Position numbers and translations under genes: made by a program. The notes below the pieces were generated by a model, which saw only the letters and a program-made list of their open reading frames with translations, did not search any database and was not told where the DNA came from. Shown here piece after piece: positions 23,550 to 37,252 of a stretch of 62,969 nt of DNA (position 1 is the stretch's first letter; every line of letters starts with the position of its first letter). This stretch comes from Nitrospirota bacterium. Lineage in GTDB: Bacteria > Nitrospirota > Thermodesulfovibrionia > Thermodesulfovibrionales > UBA6898. The stretch lies in the NCBI GenBank assembly GCA_021811105.1, contig JAJZPM010000014.1, positions 1-62,969 of the forward strand. Reading direction: 5' to 3'.

Positions 23550-24323
23550 ATGGAAGACAAGCTGGTGATCAAGGGCATAGAGTTCCGTTCGAGGCTCTGG
23601 GTGGGGACCGGCAAGTATAAGGACTTTGAAGAGACGAAAAAGGCGGTCGAGGCGTCCGGCGCGGATGTGGTTACTGTCTCCGTCAGGAGGGTGAACATAA
23701 CGGACAGAAAGTCCGAAAACCTCCTCGATTATATAGACCCTAAAAAATACAAGATCCTGCCGAATACGGCGGGATGCTATACAGTGGAAGACGCACTCCG
23801 ATATTCGAGGCTTGCCAGGGAAGCCGGGATTTCCGACCTGGTAAAACTCGAGGTGATCGGAGATGAAAGGACACTCTTTCCCGATACGATCGGACTTCTC
23901 AAGGCTACAGAAATTCTCGCAAAAGAAGGGTTTATCGTGCTGCCCTATACGAACGACGACCCTATTATGGCAAAGCGTCTCGAGGACGCCGGTGCGGCAG
24001 CGGTCATGCCTCTCGGCGCGCCGATTGGATCGGGACTCGGCATTCGCAACCCCTACAACATACGGATCATAATCGAGACTGCGGTGAAAGTGCCGGTCGT
24101 TGTCGACGCCGGGGTGGGAACGGCATCCGACGCCGCGTTCGCGATGGAACTCGGCTGCGATGCGGTCCTGATCAACACCGGGATCGCCGGCGCGAAGGAC
24201 CCGATTGCAATGGCCTCCGCGATGAAGCATGCTGTAATCGCGGGACGGCTTGCATACCGCGCTGGAAGGATAGGGAAAAAGTTGTACGCGACCGCGAGCA
24301 GCCCGATTGAAGGGATGCTGTAG
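23550..24323 (+). CDS. thiG: Thiazole synthase ThiG
   Basis: A 257-residue TIM-barrel enzyme that builds thiazole phosphate from deoxyxylulose phosphate, dehydroglycine and ThiS thiocarboxylate. Family blocks include [61 protein letters not shown] and [32 protein letters not shown]. It starts at the base after the thiS stop and is coupled to thiE downstream. Confidence 0.95.
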
Positions 24324-24330
24324 CCCGGCG

Positions 24331-24960
24331 GTGCTAAGAGAGATAGATTTTCAGTTGTATCTGATAACGGACAGGAGCCTTCTGGGTCCCGGTGCGACGC
24401 TGCCGGCGGCGGTCGGGAGCGCCCTGAAGGGTGGGGTGAGGGCGGTGCAGCTTCGGGAAAAAGACCTGGGGACGCGGGAACTGCTCGATATGGCATACGC
24501 GCTTCGTGCGATAACAAGGGAATACAGCGCCAGGCTTTTCGTCAACGGCAGGGTCGACGTGGCCCTCGCGGCAGGTGCGGACGGCGTGCACCTTGGAAGT
24601 ACGGACATGCCCTTGCCGGCAGCGAGAAGGGCAGCAGGTGGATCGATGCTGATAGGCGTTTCGACACACAGCATCCAGGAGGCCCGAAGGGCCGAAGAGG
24701 AAGGCGCCGATTTTATCACTCTCGGGCCGGTTTACGAGACGCCTTCCAAAATGCGTTATGGAAAGCCGATCGGGATTAGGCCTCTCCGGGAGGTGCGGAA
24801 GGAGGTGGCGATACCGGTATTTGCGATCGGCGGCATCACAAGGGAGAGGGTTGAGGAGGTCGTGGAGGCTGGCGCTTCCGGCGTGGCCCTTATATCGGCT
24901 ATCCTCGCGTCTGGCGACATTAAATCAAGTGCGGAAGAGTTTATGAGGCTATTGAAATGA
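24331..24960 (+). CDS. thiE: Thiamine-phosphate synthase ThiE
   Basis: About 209 residues. It joins HMP pyrophosphate and thiazole phosphate to give thiamine phosphate. It shows LITDR, VRAVQLREKDL (pyrophosphate site), LFVNGRVDVALAAGADGVHLG, LGPVYETPSK and FAIGGITRERVEEV. The start is uncertain: GTG at 24331 (used here) follows the thiG stop, while a TTG at 24307 would overlap it. Its stop overlaps the thiC ATG (ATGA). Confidence 0.9.
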   Translation: MLREIDFQLYLITDRSLLGPGATLPAAVGSALKGGVRAVQLREKDLGTRELLDMAYALRAITREYSARLFVNGRVDVALAAGADGVHLGSTDMPLPAARRAAGGSMLIGVSTHSIQEARRAEEEGADFITLGPVYETPSKMRYGKPIGIRPLREVRKEVAIPVFAIGGITRERVEEVVEAGASGVALISAILASGDIKSSAEEFMRLLK

Positions 24961-26243
24961 CGAGAATCGAACTCGCAAGAAAAGGCATTATTACCGAAGA
25001 GGTGAAAGAGGCAGCGGCAGCGGAAGGCTTTTCCGCCGAGGCGCTTTCAGCGGATATCGCCTCGGGGGTGAGCGTCATCCCCCTGAACAGGAACCGCAGG
25101 ATAAAGCCGATCGCTATCGGCAGAGGCCTGCGGACCAAGATCAACGCCAATATCGGCACGTCGAAGGACAGGGTTTCGATAGAGGAAGAGATGGAAAAAC
25201 TCGATGCCCTCGTCAAGTACGGGGCCGATGCGGTGATGGACCTTTCGACCGGGGGACCGATAAGGGAATTGCGGGCTATGATGCTCAGGCAGTCCCCGAT
25301 CGCGATCGGCACGGTGCCTATCTATGAGGCGGCGGTCAGGGCCGCTGAAGAAAAAGGCGCGATCTCGCGGATGACGGCCGACGACCTTTTCCGTGTGATC
25401 GAGGAGCATGCCTCCTCCGGTGTGGATTTCGTCACGGTGCATTGCGGTCTGACGATGAAGGCGGTCGACCGCCTGAGGGCCGAAGGCAGGATACTCGATA
25501 TCGTGAGCAGGGGAGGTTCGTTCCTGTTGGAATGGATGATCTATAACGGGAAGGATAATCCCCTCTATGAGCAGTATGACAGGCTCCTTGAAATCGCACG
25601 GGAACATGACATGACCCTGAGCCTCGGCGACGGCATGCGCCCGGGGTGTCTTGCCGACGCGACGGACCGCACGCAGATCGAAGAACTTCTGACACTCGGG
25701 GAGTTGCGCGACAAGGCGGTCGAAAGCGGCGTGCAGGTGATCATCGAGGGGCCGGGACATGTGCCCCTGAACCAGGTAGAGCTGAACGTCCGGCTCGAAA
25801 AAGAGATATGCAAAGGGGCGCCGTTCTACGTGCTTGGTCCCCTCGTTACGGACATCGGCATGGGGTATGACCATATCACGGCCGCGATCGGCGGAGCGGT
25901 TGCAGGCGCTGCAGGCGCGGATTTCCTCTGTTACGTGACTCCTTCGGAGCATATCCGCCTGCCGACCATAGAAGACGTGAAGGATGGCGTAATCGTGTCC
26001 AAACTCGCGGCCCATGCGGCGGACATCGCCAAGGGCATAAAGGGTGCGATGGATGCGGATATAAAGATGGCACGATGCAGAAAGGCGCTCGACTGGAACG
26101 GCCAGATCGCACTCAGTCTTAATCCCGACAAGGTGAGGGAGTGGCGTGCCGAGGTCCCGCCGACGGAATCGGAAGTCTGCAGTATGTGCGGGGAGTTCTG
26201 CGCGATCAGGACGGTCGAAAGGGCGCTGAAAAAAAGGGCTTAG
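24957..26243 (+). CDS. thiC: Phosphomethylpyrimidine synthase ThiC
   Basis: A 428-residue radical-SAM enzyme that rearranges aminoimidazole ribotide to HMP phosphate. The 4Fe-4S cysteines are in the C-terminal C-x2-C-x4-C motif (CSMCGEFC), as expected for ThiC, whose cluster is C-terminal. Other family blocks are RTKINANIGTS, VTVHCGLT, SLGDGMRPG and EGPGHVPL. It is the last gene of thiS-G-E-C. The 428-residue length matches the short (non-enterobacterial) form. Confidence 0.96.
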   Translation: MTRIELARKGIITEEVKEAAAAEGFSAEALSADIASGVSVIPLNRNRRIKPIAIGRGLRTKINANIGTSKDRVSIEEEMEKLDALVKYGADAVMDLSTGGPIRELRAMMLRQSPIAIGTVPIYEAAVRAAEEKGAISRMTADDLFRVIEEHASSGVDFVTVHCGLTMKAVDRLRAEGRILDIVSRGGSFLLEWMIYNGKDNPLYEQYDRLLEIAREHDMTLSLGDGMRPGCLADATDRTQIEELLTLGELRDKAVESGVQVIIEGPGHVPLNQVELNVRLEKEICKGAPFYVLGPLVTDIGMGYDHITAAIGGAVAGAAGADFLCYVTPSEHIRLPTIEDVKDGVIVSKLAAHAADIAKGIKGAMDADIKMARCRKALDWNGQIALSLNPDKVREWRAEVPPTESEVCSMCGEFCAIRTVERALKKRA

Positions 26244-26323: not shown

Positions 26324-26992
26324 ATGATCAAGACGAATAATGAAATGAACGTCCGGGCCATGCTTTTGATCGGTCCCACAGGTGTCGGCAAGACTCCTTT
26401 CGGCTGGTATCTCGAAACGCGCGGCCTGGGAGGGGGCCGCCGCTGCCTGCATTTCGATTTCGGCCATCAGCTCCGTGCGATTTCAGGGCATGGAACGACG
26501 CCCGACGGCTTTTTGCGGGAGGAACTCTCCTTCATCAGGGACGTGCTCGAAAAGGGGCTTCTTCTCGAAAACGAGCATTTTCCTATAGCCGAAAAGATAA
26601 TCGAGATGTTCCTGCGTGACAGGGACTTCAGCAAGACTGACATATTGGTCCTCAACGGGCTGCCACGGCATACGGACCAGGCAAGGGACATGGACAGAAC
26701 GGTGAAGACCGAGGCGGTCATCGTACTGGACTGCGAGGCGGAGGAGGTCTTCCGGCGGATTGCGGAGAACACCGGCGGCGACCGCTCGGGAAGGACGGAC
26801 GACAACATCGAAATGGTCAGAAGGAAATTGGATATATTCCATGAACGTACCGCTCCCCTGATAGGGCATTATGCTGCTGCTGGATGTGACGTATTCAGGT
26901 TGAAGGTCACCGCTTCCTCAACGGTGGAGGATGTCTATTCAGATTTTATTTCAATGACTAACCGGCTGCGGCTCCGGTCCCCTGATCTTTGA
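26324..26992 (+). CDS. Adenylate-kinase-like P-loop kinase
   Basis: A 222-residue protein with a Walker A loop at about residues 17-24 (GPTGVGKT), a hydrophobic strand ending in NGLPRHTDQ where adenylate kinases have GFPR-TxxQ, and a lid-like segment (NTGGDRSGRTDDNIEMVRRKL). It should phosphorylate a nucleotide or similar small molecule. It is too divergent to be the housekeeping Adk. The gene follows thiC by 80 bases, but a thiamine-related role is only a positional guess. Confidence 0.65.
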   Translation: MIKTNNEMNVRAMLLIGPTGVGKTPFGWYLETRGLGGGRRCLHFDFGHQLRAISGHGTTPDGFLREELSFIRDVLEKGLLLENEHFPIAEKIIEMFLRDRDFSKTDILVLNGLPRHTDQARDMDRTVKTEAVIVLDCEAEEVFRRIAENTGGDRSGRTDDNIEMVRRKLDIFHERTAPLIGHYAAAGCDVFRLKVTASSTVEDVYSDFISMTNRLRLRSPDL

Positions 26993-27094: not shown

Positions 27095-28231
27095 ATGAAG
27101 GTCAATATCGCGGATGTGCCAACTCTTGCGCGGCTGCTCAACAGGAAAAAGCGGCACGGAGGCGCCGGCTATGCCGTGGACCTTGGTGTCATCCTGAGAG
27201 AGATACTCACATGGGCAAACAGGCTGGTGCCTTCCGAATCCGGCTCCATTTTGCTCGATGATCCCCTGCTGAAATGGGATCCTCTGGGCAGAGGACAGCT
27301 TTTTTTTGCCGCCTGCTTCGGCAGGGGTTCACGCACCCTCGTCGGGACTTCTCTCGGAGAGGAGTGCGGGATCGCCGGGGTCACTTACCGCAGGGGGAGG
27401 CCTTACATAAGCAAGGATGTGCAAAAGGACGCCAGGTCTTATCCCGTGATTGACGGGAAAACCGGCTTTCAGACCAGGTCTATCATCTGCGCCCCGATCG
27501 TGATCGGCGGGGCCAAGATAGGGGTCATAGAGCTGATTAACAGAAAAGGTAAGGCGAACTATGACGAGCATGATCTTGCGCTCCTCGAAATCTTCGCCGG
27601 CTATACCGCTACGCTGGTGCACAACGCGCTGATCGGACGAATGTTCGAAGAACTCTCGAAGAAGGACTCCCTGACCGATCTGCATAACGACCGGTTTTTC
27701 TTCCACAGCCTCGAGCAGGAGGCGATGAAGGTCGTAAGGCAGGGCGGCGAGCTCTCGCTCATATTCTTCGATCTCGACAGGTTCAAGGAGGTGAACGATA
27801 CTCACGGGCACCTTGCCGGGAGCCGCGTACTGAAGGAAGTGGCCGATATCCTGAGAAGACTATTTATCGGTGTCAAGGCCGTGCTCGCACGCTACGGGGG
27901 AGACGAGTATGTGGTGGTACTCCCGGGGATGGATATCCGTGAGGCCGCGCGTTATGCGGAGAGGATACGCCACGACATCGCGGCGAATGTTTTTTTGAAG
28001 ACCGGGGACGGCGTGCGCGTACCGCGTCTTAACATACGGGGGGTAATTACCTGCAGCATCGGGGTCGCTTCTATGTCGCAGAGTATCAAGACGAGCGGGA
28101 GCGGCAGGGCGGTGGCCGAGTCTCTGATAAAGGCGGCCGACAGCGCTATGTATGCTGCAAAGGAACAGGGAAAAAACAGGGTCTTCCTGTCACAGGGCGG
28201 TCGTGTTCCGGCCAGGAAAAGAAGGAGATGA
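27095..28231 (+). CDS. GAF-GGDEF protein, probable diguanylate cyclase
   Basis: A 378-residue cytosolic signalling protein. An N-terminal GAF domain (about 30-180, with RSIICAPIVIGGAKIGVIELINR) would bind a small ligand. The C-terminal GGDEF domain (about 190-370) has YGGDEYVVV as active site, GGDEY being an accepted active variant, plus FFDLDRFKEVNDTHGH. It should make cyclic di-GMP. I see no RxxD inhibitory site immediately upstream of the signature. The stop codon directly precedes the next gene. Confidence 0.85.
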   Translation: MKVNIADVPTLARLLNRKKRHGGAGYAVDLGVILREILTWANRLVPSESGSILLDDPLLKWDPLGRGQLFFAACFGRGSRTLVGTSLGEECGIAGVTYRRGRPYISKDVQKDARSYPVIDGKTGFQTRSIICAPIVIGGAKIGVIELINRKGKANYDEHDLALLEIFAGYTATLVHNALIGRMFEELSKKDSLTDLHNDRFFFHSLEQEAMKVVRQGGELSLIFFDLDRFKEVNDTHGHLAGSRVLKEVADILRRLFIGVKAVLARYGGDEYVVVLPGMDIREAARYAERIRHDIAANVFLKTGDGVRVPRLNIRGVITCSIGVASMSQSIKTSGSGRAVAESLIKAADSAMYAAKEQGKNRVFLSQGGRVPARKRRR

Positions 28232-28232
28232 T

Positions 28233-31232
28233 ATGCGCGGGTTTATGAGGGGTTTGTTCGTGACTTTTTTTTTATTCCTGCCGGTGGTCTCGTACGGGAT
28301 GGAAAGCCTGCCGGCCAATAGTATTACCGTTCGTTTCGATCTCGAGCGGCATTTGCTGAGGGGGGTTTCGAAAATTGTCCTTCCGGCCGGCGGCGAGGCT
28401 GCAGTCGACCTGTCGGGACTCAGGGTCCTCTCCGCAACCGTCGACGGCGTTGCGCTTGAGACAGGGCCGAAGACTTCGGTGGTCACCTTCGGTCCGAGCA
28501 GGTCTGCGGAGACCGTGGTGATAGAATATGAAATGGAGGCCGCTGCTGTCCCTGCCGCCGAAATGGAAAAGAACCCGGGAGTTGTTCAAGGCAATCTGAT
28601 CGAGCCTTCCGGCATCGTGCTCATGGGCGGCTGGTATCCTTCGGTAAGGGGCCTGTCGGTCTATAGCCTCACCGCGGTCCTTCCCTCCGGGTTCGAAGGG
28701 ATTTCGGAGGCCGACCAGGTTACCGTGCGGGAGACTGCTGACGGGAAAAAGGAGTTTGTCTTCTCTTTCCCGCATCCGGTCGGCGGGATCACCCTTGTCG
28801 GGGGAAGCTATAAAGTGCAAAGAGAGGATTTCAAGGGCACGGAAATAGCAACCTATTTCCTTCCCGAGGATGCCGGACTCGCGAATAAATACATCGAGTA
28901 CGCCAAGAAATACCTCGGAATGTATAATGACCTGATCGGGCCATACCGCTATAAAAGGTTTTCGATTGTCGAGAACGTGCTGCCGACGGGTTATTCTTTT
29001 CCGACGTATACGCTCCTCGGCCGTGAGGTGGTGAGACTGCCGTTTATCTTGGAGACCTCGCTCGGACATGAGATACTTCACCAGTGGTTCGGCAATATGG
29101 TGTATGTCGACTATAAGGGCGGAAACTGGTCCGAGGGCCTGACCACTTACCTCGCAGACCAGAGGTACGAAGAGATAAAAGGCGAAGGATGGGACTACCG
29201 GAAGCAGATCCTGATATCTTTTGGCAGTTACGTGAATGCCGACAACGACTTTCCGCTGGACGCCTTTACGGGCCGGATGGATTACGCCTCCAGGGCGATC
29301 GGGTACGGGAAATGCGCTATGGTCTTCCATATGCTCAGGATGCGCGTCGGGGACCAGAAGTTTTTCGATGGGATCAGGGCCTTTGTCGAAAAGAACAGTT
29401 TCCGGCGTGCTTCGTGGACGGACATCGAGGCCGCCTTCGAGACCGTCACGGGCAAGGACCTTTCATGGTACTTCAAGCAGTGGCTGGAAGAAAAGGGCGG
29501 GCCGCAGATCGAGGTGAAGAATGCGGAATTGTCGTATAGGGGGTCGACAGCGGTCGTCTCTTTCGAACTGGAACAGAAGGGGAAGGATTTTAGGTTCCTC
29601 CTGCCGGTTGCGGTAAAAACTAAGGGGGGAGAAACAACGAAGACTTTCGAGATAGAGAAGAAAAAGACTCGGCTTGAGATCGAAACGAAAGGGTCACCCA
29701 CGGAACTGGTCATCGACGGCAATTACGACCTGTTCAGAGCGCTGTCGGAAAAAGAATTTCCACCGGTGATATCGCGGCTTCTGGGCGATCCCAAGAAGAT
29801 CTTCGTAATGCAGGAAGGGAAGAAGGGGGACGGGTCTTCGGCGGTTGCCGAGTACCTGAAAAATGAGGGATTTGCGCAGAAGAAGGAGCATGAGGTTTCC
29901 TACGACGACTTTAAGACTTCGTCCTTATTGATCTTCGGCTCCGACAGCCCCCTGGCGGAAAGCCTCTACGGTAAGGGCGGCAAGAACGATCAGGATTTTG
30001 TGCTCGTTATGCGGGAAAATCCGTATAACCCGAAAGGGGTGATCGCGGTCGTCGACGGTCCTGCCTCAGAGGACATGATAGGGTATCTCCGGAGGATGAC
30101 GCACTACGGTAAATACAGCGGGATATCATTCATGGGAGGGAAAAACACCTTGAAAGACATAGACGCGAGCGCCAGGGGGATGACCCGGAAAGTCGCGGGC
30201 GAAGTTCCCGGGGTCGAGATAGCCCGCCTGATCGATATGCCCGTCGCGATCGACAAGGCTGCCGGAAAGAAGATCGTGTACGTGGGAGAACAGCATGATA
30301 ATTTCGCACACCACCGGGTTGAGTATGAGGTAATCCGCAAACTGCACGAGAGGGGCAATAAGATCGCAATCGGGATGGAGATGTTCCAGAAGCCGTTCCA
30401 AAAGGCACTCGACGATTACATCTCGGGCACCATCGATGAGCGGGAGTTCCTGAAAAAATCGGAATATTTTAAACAGTGGGGGTTCGACTATACACTCTAT
30501 CGCGAGATCCTGCTCTATGCGAGACAGTTCAAGATACCGGTCATCGCCCTGAATATCAGGAAGGCAATTGTATCGAAGGTCTTCAAGGAGGGGCTTTATG
30601 CTCTTACACCGGAAGAGAGAAAAGAGATCCCGCAGGATATGGATCTTTCCGATATGGCGTATAAGGCGAGGCTGAAACAGTTCTTCGAAATGCACAAAGG
30701 CGCAGAGAGCAGCAACTTCGATTTTTTCTACCAGGCGCAGGTCCTCTGGGACGAATCGATGGCGCACAATCTGGCGGCGTTCATGAAAAAGGACCCTGGC
30801 TATCAGGTCGTGGTCGTGGCGGGGATGGGCCATCTCGCCTTTGGTTCGGGCATCCCCAAGCGGGCGTACAGACTTAACGGCCAGGAATATTCAATCATTC
30901 TGAACGATAGCGATATCGAAAAAAATATCTCTGATTTTGTCCTTTTCCCCTCTCCGATCAAGCCGCCCGAGACGCCGAAACTCGGCGTGATTCTGAAAGA
31001 GGAAAAAGGCATGGTTGCGATTGAGTCGCTCATGCCAGGTGGCGTGGCTGATAAGGCCGGCCTCAAAAAAGGGGACGTGATTTTGGCGATGGACAATACG
31101 AAGATAGAAAGCGCAGACGACGTTAGGATATTTCTGCTGTACAAAAAAGCCGGGGATACGGTCACGGTCAGGGTGCGGCGGCAGAGGTTTCTCTTCGGAC
31201 CGGTGGAGAAGGAGATTCGGGTAACCTTGTGA
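28233..31232 (+). CDS. M1-type metallopeptidase / ChaN-like / PDZ fusion, exported
   Basis: A 999-residue protein starting at ATG 28233 with GAAGGAGA before it. A signal peptide (about 1-22, ending SYG) leads into an M1-like peptidase: H279-E-I-L-H283 and E301 (GNWSEGLTTYLA) bind zinc. Residues of about 665-905 match the ChaN family of haem-binding iron-regulated lipoproteins (VYVGEQHDN, IGMEMFQ, VVVAGMGHLAFG). A PDZ domain closes the protein (about 915-999; VAIESLMPGGVADKAGLKKGDVIL). No lipobox is visible, so it is probably periplasmic. The three-part fusion is unusual and suggests peptide or haem-peptide processing, which is an inference. Confidence 0.82.
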   Translation: MRGFMRGLFVTFFLFLPVVSYGMESLPANSITVRFDLERHLLRGVSKIVLPAGGEAAVDLSGLRVLSATVDGVALETGPKTSVVTFGPSRSAETVVIEYEMEAAAVPAAEMEKNPGVVQGNLIEPSGIVLMGGWYPSVRGLSVYSLTAVLPSGFEGISEADQVTVRETADGKKEFVFSFPHPVGGITLVGGSYKVQREDFKGTEIATYFLPEDAGLANKYIEYAKKYLGMYNDLIGPYRYKRFSIVENVLPTGYSFPTYTLLGREVVRLPFILETSLGHEILHQWFGNMVYVDYKGGNWSEGLTTYLADQRYEEIKGEGWDYRKQILISFGSYVNADNDFPLDAFTGRMDYASRAIGYGKCAMVFHMLRMRVGDQKFFDGIRAFVEKNSFRRASWTDIEAAFETVTGKDLSWYFKQWLEEKGGPQIEVKNAELSYRGSTAVVSFELEQKGKDFRFLLPVAVKTKGGETTKTFEIEKKKTRLEIETKGSPTELVIDGNYDLFRALSEKEFPPVISRLLGDPKKIFVMQEGKKGDGSSAVAEYLKNEGFAQKKEHEVSYDDFKTSSLLIFGSDSPLAESLYGKGGKNDQDFVLVMRENPYNPKGVIAVVDGPASEDMIGYLRRMTHYGKYSGISFMGGKNTLKDIDASARGMTRKVAGEVPGVEIARLIDMPVAIDKAAGKKIVYVGEQHDNFAHHRVEYEVIRKLHERGNKIAIGMEMFQKPFQKALDDYISGTIDEREFLKKSEYFKQWGFDYTLYREILLYARQFKIPVIALNIRKAIVSKVFKEGLYALTPEERKEIPQDMDLSDMAYKARLKQFFEMHKGAESSNFDFFYQAQVLWDESMAHNLAAFMKKDPGYQVVVVAGMGHLAFGSGIPKRAYRLNGQEYSIILNDSDIEKNISDFVLFPSPIKPPETPKLGVILKEEKGMVAIESLMPGGVADKAGLKKGDVILAMDNTKIESADDVRIFLLYKKAGDTVTVRVRRQRFLFGPVEKEIRVTL

Positions 31233-31842: not shown

Positions 31843-32604
31843 ATGATTGCGGTATTGACTATCGCAGGGTCTGATCCATCGGGTGGAGCGGGTATTCAAC
31901 AGGACCTTAAGGTCTTCCGGTCCTTTGGGACATATGGTCTGTCCGTCGTTTCTTCGCTGACCGCGCAGAGCTCCGCCGGTGTGGCAGGCGTCATGGCAGT
32001 GCCGGGAAAGTTTGTGACGAAGCAACTCGCAGTCGTTGTCGCCGATATCATGCCCGATGCGATTAAGACAGGCATGCTTTACAGTGAGGAGAACGTGAAT
32101 GCCGTTGCCGCGGCCATCAGGAGGTTTTCTCTTCCGAACGTTGTGGTCGACCCGGTGATTCGTTCTTCAACGGGCAGAAGCCTCTGCATGGGAAACGTCC
32201 CCGGTGCGATGAAAAAGAGATTGCTGCCGCTCTGCACGGTGGTGACGCCGAATATCCACGAGGCGTCTATACTGAGCGGCATGCGGATCAGGACACTGAG
32301 GGACATGGAAAAGGCGGCGGTGAAGCTGGCGCATCTCGGCGCTGGAAGTGTGATCATCACCGGCGGACATCTCGAAGCAGCGGCAACCGATCTCGTCTAT
32401 GACGGCCGGTTCCATTACCTGAAGGGCAGAAAGATTTCCGGTGAATATCACGGAACGGGCTGCACCTTTTCGGCTGCGCTCGCCTCGCTGCTGGCGAAAG
32501 GGGAGAGCGTTCCAAGTGCGGCGTTAAAGGCAAAAAAATTTATGGGCAGTGCTTTCAGGAAAACCTTTAGCCCGGGAACGGGCATGAGACTTTTCGATAT
32601 ATAA
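31843..32604 (+). CDS. thiD: Hydroxymethylpyrimidine (phosphate) kinase ThiD
   Basis: A 253-residue ribokinase-fold enzyme that phosphorylates HMP and HMP-P for thiamine synthesis. Blocks: TIAGSDPSGGAGIQQDLK, the VVDPVIRSSTG region and the anion-hole/catalytic GTGCTFSAALAS. It is separate from the thiSGEC operon and has no TPP riboswitch; the -10 box sits 5 bases before the ATG. It is not fused to ThiE or ThiN. Confidence 0.92.
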   Translation: MIAVLTIAGSDPSGGAGIQQDLKVFRSFGTYGLSVVSSLTAQSSAGVAGVMAVPGKFVTKQLAVVVADIMPDAIKTGMLYSEENVNAVAAAIRRFSLPNVVVDPVIRSSTGRSLCMGNVPGAMKKRLLPLCTVVTPNIHEASILSGMRIRTLRDMEKAAVKLAHLGAGSVIITGGHLEAAATDLVYDGRFHYLKGRKISGEYHGTGCTFSAALASLLAKGESVPSAALKAKKFMGSAFRKTFSPGTGMRLFDI

Positions 32605-32704: not shown

Positions 32705-34069
32705 ATGTCCAAAACAAAGACTTATTATCAGTGCCAGTCATGCGGCCACGCGAGCCCGAAGTGGCTGGGCAAATGCCCCGACTGCGGGAGCTGGAACAGT
32801 TTTGTCGAGGAAAAGTCTGTCCCCCCGGGGCGACGTACCTCCGGCATCGATACGTTGGGCAAGACGGCGCCTGTTGCACTTGGCGCCATCGACACTGTCT
32901 CTGAAAGCAGGACGCCTACAGGTCTTCAGGAATTCGACCGGGTCCTCGGCGGTGGGGTAGTGCCGGGGTCCGTGGTCTTGGTCGGCGGGGACCCCGGCAT
33001 AGGGAAATCAACACTCCTCCTTCAGACCTTCTCCGGCCTCTCAAAAAAATCCGGGAAATTGCTCTATGTCTCTGGTGAAGAGTCCCCAAGGCAGATCAAG
33101 ATGAGGGCCGACAGGCTTACTGTAAACGCCGACAACATCATCCTGCTGCCCGAGACGTCGTTGGAAGGAATTCTCGACACGGCGGCAAAGCTTTCTCCCG
33201 AGGCGATGGTTGTGGACTCGATCCAGACGGTCTATACCCAGGAGATGCTCTCAGCGCCGGGATCGGTCGGCCAGGTCCGGGAATGCTCTGCGAAGCTTAT
33301 GCTCTTTGCGAAGCGCTCGGGCATCCCGGTCTTTATCGTGGGGCATGTCACGAAAGAAGGTACGATCGCGGGGCCTCGCGTGCTCGAACACATTGTCGAC
33401 ACCGTGTTATATTTCGAAGGCGACAGGGGACATTCCTATCGCATACTCCGGACGATGAAAAACAGGTTCGGCTCCACGAATGAGATAGGAGTGTTCGAAA
33501 TGTCCGATGCGGGGCTGAGGGAGGTCGACAACCCGTCGGAGTTGTTCCTTTCAGAACGGCCTCGGAACGTCTCGGGTTCTGCCGTAGTGGCGAGCCTCGA
33601 AGGCACAAGGCCTCTGATGGTCGAGGTGCAGGCGCTCGTGTCGCAGACGAACTTCGGCATGCCGAGAAGGACTTCCATCGGGGTCGACTTCAACAGGGTC
33701 AACCTTCTCGTCGCGGTGCTCGAAAAGAGGGCGGGGCTCCACCTGGGCGGCATGGACATCTTCGTAAACGTCGTCGGCGGGCTGAAGATAATGGAACCCG
33801 CAGTGGACCTCGGTATTGTCGCCACGGTATCCTCATCTGTGAGAGAGGTGCCGGTGGACCCGAGGACATGTGTCTTCGGCGAAGTGGGACTTTCGGGCGA
33901 GGTGCGCGCTGTGGCGCAGGCCGAAGCGAGGCTGCGGGAGGCGGCGAAGATCGGCTTCAAAAAGGCGATAGTCCCCGCGGGCAATGCGGAGAAGATCAAA
34001 AACGATCAGGGACTCGAAATAATGGGGGTGAGAGATGTCGAGGCATGCATCGAAGCTGTTCTTTCTTAG
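32705..34069 (+). CDS. radA: DNA repair protein RadA
   Basis: A 454-residue RecA-like ATPase that promotes branch migration in recombinational repair. A four-cysteine zinc finger is at residues 9-26 (CQSCGHASPKWLGKCPDC), Walker A is GGDPGIGKST, the RadA-specific KNRFG motif is present, and a Lon-protease-like C-terminal domain occupies about 280-450. It overlaps the next lipoprotein gene by 35 bases. A TAATAA-like box shortly before the ATG and the lack of a ribosome site suggest another near-leaderless start. Confidence 0.95.
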   Translation: MSKTKTYYQCQSCGHASPKWLGKCPDCGSWNSFVEEKSVPPGRRTSGIDTLGKTAPVALGAIDTVSESRTPTGLQEFDRVLGGGVVPGSVVLVGGDPGIGKSTLLLQTFSGLSKKSGKLLYVSGEESPRQIKMRADRLTVNADNIILLPETSLEGILDTAAKLSPEAMVVDSIQTVYTQEMLSAPGSVGQVRECSAKLMLFAKRSGIPVFIVGHVTKEGTIAGPRVLEHIVDTVLYFEGDRGHSYRILRTMKNRFGSTNEIGVFEMSDAGLREVDNPSELFLSERPRNVSGSAVVASLEGTRPLMVEVQALVSQTNFGMPRRTSIGVDFNRVNLLVAVLEKRAGLHLGGMDIFVNVVGGLKIMEPAVDLGIVATVSSSVREVPVDPRTCVFGEVGLSGEVRAVAQAEARLREAAKIGFKKAIVPAGNAEKIKNDQGLEIMGVRDVEACIEAVLS

Positions 34070-34658
34070 TCTTGTATTTTTCTTAGCTGCCTGCGCGCCG
34101 AAAAAAATAGCGATGCCCTCCTATGAGGGAAGGGCCTTCAGCGACGTCCTCGCGGAAAGGAGCGGTATTTCAGGGATCGACGCTAAGCTTGCGATCCTCT
34201 TCGAAAGAAACGGTTCCGAAATCAGTGGAGACGCCGCCCTCGACATATCAAGGTCAGGCGACCTGAGCCTCCGGGTCTACTCACTCGGGTTTCTTGCGAT
34301 GGAACTGACCTCGCGGGACGGGCGCGTGAAGAGCTATCCTCCCCTTGACAGCGGAAAGAAACTCATACTTACCGAGGGATTAAGGGACTGCCTCTTCTGG
34401 TGGGACATGAAGGACTATGTCTTTAGTGAGGAAAACGGCTGCTATCTGCTGAAGAGTCCCGACCGTGAACTGTGGATCGATAAGAAAACGTTTCTCCCCA
34501 ACAGGCAGACGATGCGTTTCGAGGACGGTAAGGTGCTGAATATCTACTACAGCGAGCCGGCGAATGACGACGACATATGGTATCAGTCGAAGATCCGGAT
34601 CGAGCTGTCGAGATATGCCGTTACCCTCACGATCAAGAAGATGACCTTCAAGTCGTAG
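34035..34658 (+). CDS. Lipoprotein, LolB/DUF4292-like
   Basis: A 207-residue protein with a signal peptide and lipobox LAAC (Cys at about 20), followed by a beta-rich domain (FERNGSEISGDAALDISRSGDLSLRVYSLGFLAMEL). This pattern resembles the LolA/LolB-like beta-fold lipoproteins that carry lipids or lipoproteins to the outer membrane. It overlaps the radA 3' end, so the two are probably co-translated. The specific function is unknown. Confidence 0.7.
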   Translation: MSRHASKLFFLSLVFFLAACAPKKIAMPSYEGRAFSDVLAERSGISGIDAKLAILFERNGSEISGDAALDISRSGDLSLRVYSLGFLAMELTSRDGRVKSYPPLDSGKKLILTEGLRDCLFWWDMKDYVFSEENGCYLLKSPDRELWIDKKTFLPNRQTMRFEDGKVLNIYYSEPANDDDIWYQSKIRIELSRYAVTLTIKKMTFKS

Positions 34659-36205: not shown

Positions 36206-37252
36206 TTACTCCAGTGAAGGCAATAAGGGAACCGTCATTACGTCTTCTGGGATCTTCCCCGTCAGAGCATGCAGAAATGCAACGATGTCCTGGACCTGCT
36301 CTTTTGGAAGGTCCTTCCCCAACTGGATCTTACCCATGATCCAGACGGCTTCCTCCAGTTTGTCTACCGAGCCGTCATGGAAATAAGGGCGAGTCATCGC
36401 CACGTTCCTGAGCACCGGCACCTTGAAGACATACTTGTCGTTCTCGCTTTTCGTGACCGCAAATCTTCCCTCATCCACCTTCTTGCTCTTTGTGTATTCC
36501 CAGTACGGTGCGAAAAGGCCGAACTTCTGGTACATCTGCCCTCCGACAAAGGGGCTGAAATGACACCCTACGCACCCCTGGTCCATGAACGCCGCCAGTC
36601 CTTTTTTTTGTTGAGCCGTAATTGCATCCTTATTGCCTTTGAGAAATGCGTCCAAGGGAGCATGGGTCACCAGTGTCCTCTCGAAGGCGCCGACAGCCTT
36701 TGCGAAATTATCGACCGTCACCGGCTCCTTGTCTGAAGGGAAGGCGGCTTTAAACAGGGCTTGGTACTGCGCATATGACCGAAGTACTTTCTCGACCGAC
36801 TCATAAGACGGCATACCGAAGGCCGGCGGCCCTATGACAGACTGCTTTGCCTGGTCTTCGACGCTGGTCCTGTTCCCAATCCAGTGCTCGGATATCTGGC
36901 TCGCCGCATTAAAGACAGTGGGGTCGTTTCTCGGGTTTTCCGTGCAGTTGTGCCCAATCGACTTTCTCAGCCCGTCGGCCGCGTACAGGGGGATGGGATG
37001 GCATTTGGAACAACTTACCGTTCCGTCGACAGAAATCCTCGGCTCGTAAAAGAGGATCTTCCCGAGAGTCACCTTTTCCGGGGTTATCGGATTCTCGGCT
37101 GACGGCATGGATGCCGGCAAAGGACCGAGGACCTGTGATGCCCTCGTGATCAGGGCTTCATCGTCGGCAGTGAATGCGGTGACCGGCACGGCGAACAAAA
37201 GTATGAATAGCAAAAACCACGATTTTTTCTCTCTGAGTAACGGTGCTCTCAT
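36206..37252 (-). CDS. Dihaem cytochrome c peroxidase (CcpA/MauG family)
   Basis: A 348-residue periplasmic enzyme that reduces hydrogen peroxide with electrons from small cytochromes. The signal peptide spans about 1-30 (WFLLFILLFAVPVTAFT). Two haem c motifs are present, CSKCH (about residue 80) and CVGCH (about 226). The start has AGGAGGAAG just upstream. It depends on the cytochrome c assembly genes at 4.3-6.8 kb. The peroxidase assignment is by family; MauG-like oxidation of another protein is the alternative. Confidence 0.92.
   Translation of the reverse strand: MRAPLLREKKSWFLLFILLFAVPVTAFTADDEALITRASQVLGPLPASMPSAENPITPEKVTLGKILFYEPRISVDGTVSCSKCHPIPLYAADGLRKSIGHNCTENPRNDPTVFNAASQISEHWIGNRTSVEDQAKQSVIGPPAFGMPSYESVEKVLRSYAQYQALFKAAFPSDKEPVTVDNFAKAVGAFERTLVTHAPLDAFLKGNKDAITAQQKKGLAAFMDQGCVGCHFSPFVGGQMYQKFGLFAPYWEYTKSKKVDEGRFAVTKSENDKYVFKVPVLRNVAMTRPYFHDGSVDKLEEAVWIMGKIQLGKDLPKEQVQDIVAFLHALTGKIPEDVMTVPLLPSLE

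Follow-up and report, generated by a model that had tools for sequence, protein, structure and literature searches.

Does one chain really join an M1 peptidase to a ChaN domain and a PDZ domain, and if so, does it handle haem or cut proteins? The question is raised by an open reading frame on the forward strand of a 62,969-nucleotide stretch of Nitrospirota DNA, hereafter the window. A sequence-only reading had described an exported three-part fusion with a complete M1 zinc site, and had proposed that it processes haem peptides or turns over cytochromes.

Gene, domains and fold

Translation of the frame gives 999 residues with no internal stops. The GAF-GGDEF gene upstream stops 1 nt before the ATG, and a Shine-Dalgarno-like hexamer lies 5 nt ahead of it. 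The features, with approximate residue limits for the domains, are as follows.

28222..28227, + strand, Shine-Dalgarno-like AAGGAG, from the sequence
28233..31232, + strand, coding sequence of 999 aa (signal peptide, M1 region, MID, ChaN, PDZ), from translation, Pfam, an alignment of 58 sequences and the structure model
28233..28298, + strand, predicted N-terminal signal peptide without a lipobox, residues ~1-22, from the sequence pattern and a low-confidence model helix at 2-20
28305..29717, + strand, M1-type region, residues ~25-495, from VIA-align to tricorn-interacting factor F3 and Pfam at 278-417
28968..29021, + strand, conserved motif at the GxMEN position, residues 246-263, VENVLPTGYSFPTYTLLG, from alignments, with a gap opposite 'amen' of F3
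29067..29135, + strand, zinc site H279-E280-x-x-H283 ... E301
29730..30212, + strand, MID, an alpha/beta domain at residues ~500-660 between M1 and ChaN, with no Pfam family
30213..30947, + strand, ChaN/Tiki domain, residues ~661-905, with 2His/2Glu residues E686, H688, E716 and H867, from PF04187 and the 2G5G fold
30969..31184, + strand, PDZ domain, residues ~913-984, from Pfam PDZ_2, PDZ and PDZ_6, all three above gathering score

Pfam matches above the gathering score were obtained for Peptidase_M1 (residues 278-417, E 3.9e-14), Cofac_haem_bdg/ChaN (PF04187; residues 673-877, E 1.9e-66) and PDZ_2 (residues 915-984, E 1.1e-11). The three named domains, ChaN included, were thus all recovered by the domain search; MID had been overlooked, so the protein has at least four parts. 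The signal peptide agrees with the predicted export.

An AlphaFold2 model of the fusion, built on the 58-sequence alignment, had a pLDDT of 89.6 and a pTM of 0.82. As modelled, the N-terminal part has the fold of peptidase family M1, and VIA-align superposed it on tricorn-interacting factor F3 with Z 30.4 and rmsd 3.1 over 457 aligned residues. For MID, a profile search of the PDB gave no credible match; its structural likeness to BcsB is weak (Z 8.9, rmsd 4.2) and near noise level. The ChaN segment found nothing credible in the PDB as a single sequence, and its profile matched Campylobacter jejuni ChaN (2G5G) at E 7.1e-16. Structural alignment to 2G5G gave Z 23.4 over 227 residues at 18% identity, followed by HopBA1 (Z 16.1), BcR135/136 (Z ~14.5-15) and EreC (Z 13-14).

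The layout is common to 58 aligned fused homologues from several phyla. Single-ORF homologues in the same genus are 94% and 76% identical, and the single-ORF four-domain layout is kept across bins of Nitrospirota, Desulfobacterota, Aquificota and Campylobacterota. The survey of the architecture across genomes thus bore it out, in the same genus and in many other genera, and an artefactual join of two adjacent genes by assembly error is ruled out by conservation throughout the 58, near relatives included. In a sample of 245 Nitrospirota genomes, where a fused call was defined as a ChaN match inside an ORF of at least 780 aa, 50 were fused.

The two putative active sites

The M1 zinc site proved complete, as had been read from the sequence. 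Its ligands H279, H283 and E301, together with E280 and the catalytic-type tyrosine Y358, are kept in 56 of the 58 fused and in all 38 split sequences (forms encoded by separate genes, see below). Note that the distal glutamate is spaced at 17 rather than the usual 18. The region resembles the M1 aminopeptidases (F3, PepN) in fold (Z 30), in the HExxH...E zinc site and in the catalytic-type Tyr; it differs from them in having no GxMEN and in the added MID, ChaN and PDZ domains. The GxMEN aminopeptidase motif is absent from the M1 part, where a conserved VENxxPTGYSMPTFTLLG stands in the fused family and VENxWESGYGMPSFTLLG in most split forms. Because this segment replaces GxMEN, the usual anchor for the substrate amino terminus is missing, and the specificity of the M1 part is therefore not predictable from its family.

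In at least one fused homologue (L032) the zinc residues of M1 are gone and those of ChaN are intact, so M1 activity would be dispensable in that protein. The genome of L032 also encodes an M1-M28-PDZ protein. A second homologue (L066) was left out as evidence of zinc-site loss, its M1 region being poorly aligned.

In the ChaN module, the four residues E686, H688, E716 and H867 are invariant across all 58 fused and all 35 split sequences. They correspond to the 2His/2Glu catalytic residues of Tiki/Ere hydrolases, whose importance has been demonstrated in a Tiki-family enzyme (PMC6254334), and by sequence the module has the residues that mark this superfamily. Its likeness to the Tiki/Ere superfamily (EreC, BcR135/136, RRSP) lies in fold (Z 12-15) and in this site; the sequences are remote, at 13-17% identity.

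PF04187 owes its haem label to C. jejuni ChaN, a stand-alone protein, where the domain here is a fused module. Both share the ChaN fold and 2His/2Glu (E49, H51, E83 and H223 in 2G5G). Since this ChaN, reported to bind haem, also keeps the four residues, the motif is compatible with haem binding. Several residues invariant in the fused family are replaced in 2G5G, namely H694 (K57), W839 (K200), E841 (R202), Y756 (F126) and R877 (H233). Among seven aligned 2G5G tyrosines, taken as candidate haem ligands, only Y123, equivalent to Y753 in the window, falls in a nearly invariant tyrosine column. ChaN plus PDZ also occurs in the PDZ-DUF399 'EreA-ChaN-like' family (DVU_3254; PMC6411480). In the part of that account available to us, PDZ-DUF399 and PDZ-M28 proteins are listed as classes, both uncharacterised there, with no mention of an M1 partner or fusion.

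Split, paired and swapped forms

Sedimenticola and related Gammaproteobacteria carry M1+MID and ChaN-PDZ as separate, divergent genes, the former with a signal peptide and the latter often with a lipobox-like motif; MID travels with M1. The gammaproteobacterial order that includes genome G261 was sampled at 147 genomes: M1+MID was found in 128, each of which also had ChaN-PDZ; ChaN-PDZ stood alone in 3 more, for a total of 131, M1 alone in none, and 16 lacked both. Divergent neighbours make up 109 of the 128 pairs, with the matched stretches a median 223 nt apart, and copy number is low, usually one pair per genome. On the Azoarcus plasmid pAZKH, ChaN precedes M1 on the same strand, and the two genes share 4 nt. 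Outside the 50 fused-ORF genomes of the Nitrospirota sample, 90 had both modules, 10 ChaN only and 15 M1 only, and 80 lacked both. PDZ is missing from at least some ChaN proteins of these genomes.

Fisher tests of co-occurrence gave P values of 1e-18 and 1e-27, with shared ancestry ignored. The tree of the M1 part parallels that of ChaN-PDZ (r 0.88; best shuffle 0.12), an agreement also expected from shared species history, and the split forms make one clade in each tree. The protein is thus a Rosetta-stone fusion of modules that in other bacteria are separate, co-inherited and usually neighbouring genes. The functional tie between peptidase and ChaN modules drawn by the sequence-only reading has strong support from the fusion, the divergent pairing, the operon and the co-occurrence.

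In some Thermodesulfovibrionia, paralogues (L113, L114 and L115) consist of M1+MID, then an M28 peptidase, then PDZ. A module of a known peptidase family can therefore fill the ChaN position on the M1+MID chassis, which favours a hydrolytic role for ChaN without proving it. An M1+MID-only paralogue (L117:9729-11924) lies 3.7 kb from a fusion gene. Of the 12 split loci sampled, four (L142, L143, L150 and L151) have another gene just downstream of ChaN-PDZ on the same strand; Pfam identified it as a U32 peptidase in the three of these that were scanned.

Proposed function and gene neighbourhood

It is very probable that the two modules work together in the cell envelope, because they are fused here and elsewhere are co-inherited and usually neighbouring genes. 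What they do is more likely to be the cutting of proteins than the handling of haem. We rather favour an exported envelope peptidase/hydrolase with two active sites in one chain and the PDZ domain as substrate recruiter, an activity predicted from sequence features. The N-terminal part would be an M1-type zinc peptidase with an intact zinc site and no aminopeptidase anchor, and the ChaN domain a Tiki/Ere-type hydrolase module using the 2His/2Glu site. Both modules would cut, each site being active on peptides, while MID would hold them together and PDZ would bring in envelope proteins or their C-termini. Haem would play no part.

A wider proposal, offered tentatively, is that these proteins form a widespread, undescribed system of envelope proteolysis, in which a protease of the Tiki type and a zinc peptidase of the M1 type, the latter lacking the aminopeptidase motif, are obligate partners, encoded as a fusion, a divergent pair or an operon, and that the 'haem-binding' annotation is misleading. 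If so, many Gram-negatives would carry one hydrolase system in two halves, one now annotated 'ChaN family lipoprotein, haem-binding' and the other its M1 neighbour; an uncharacterised domain would gain a testable function, and Tiki-type enzymes a bacterial setting. A literature search, mostly of open-access journals, turned up no description of either the M1-ChaN pair or the triple fusion.

The favoured hydrolase has to be weighed against haem or iron handling, in which ChaN would bind haem and the peptidase would free or process cytochrome haem peptides. The name of PF04187 refers to haem binding, the top structural match is haem-bound ChaN and the Y123/Y753 column is nearly invariant; yet most 2G5G tyrosines are unconserved in the fused family, family-invariant residues are replaced in 2G5G, an M28-PDZ module can occupy the place of ChaN-PDZ, and no conserved haem or cytochrome-maturation neighbours of the fusion were found in the sampled loci, its neighbours here being thiamine genes. 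We regard this role, and with it the earlier proposal of haem-peptide processing or cytochrome turnover, as unlikely.

It is slightly less likely again that only ChaN is essential for catalysis, the M1 region being mainly a binding scaffold. The loss of GxMEN would fit such a scaffold, as would the contrast between 58/58 ChaN residues and the zinc residues missing from L032, but a pure scaffold would not retain the zinc site as widely as was seen in both fused and split forms. Least probable, in our judgement, is that the protein is no general protease and instead serves to process or mature a single conserved substrate in the envelope. Tight co-inheritance and the usual single pair per genome are what such a role would predict; against it, apart from the two modules themselves, the sampled loci hold no conserved neighbouring gene that could encode a candidate substrate.

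Gene neighbourhood was dropped as a clue to function, since the Nitrospirota loci give only thiamine genes and these are not carried over to other phyla. In the window, ThiC (24957-26243) and ThiD (31843-32604) flank the fusion, and upstream ORFs at 23550 and 24307 resemble ThiG and ThiE. An adenylate-kinase-like protein that also flanks the fusion (26324-26992) is kept in 9 sampled loci, and a 207-aa protein without Pfam or NCBIfam matches (34035-34658) is conserved in 7. A MauG/MbnH-like di-haem protein is encoded on the minus strand ~5 kb downstream (36206-37252). The same genome (L002, G000:C88) also encodes a second, stand-alone ChaN of 287 aa without PDZ.
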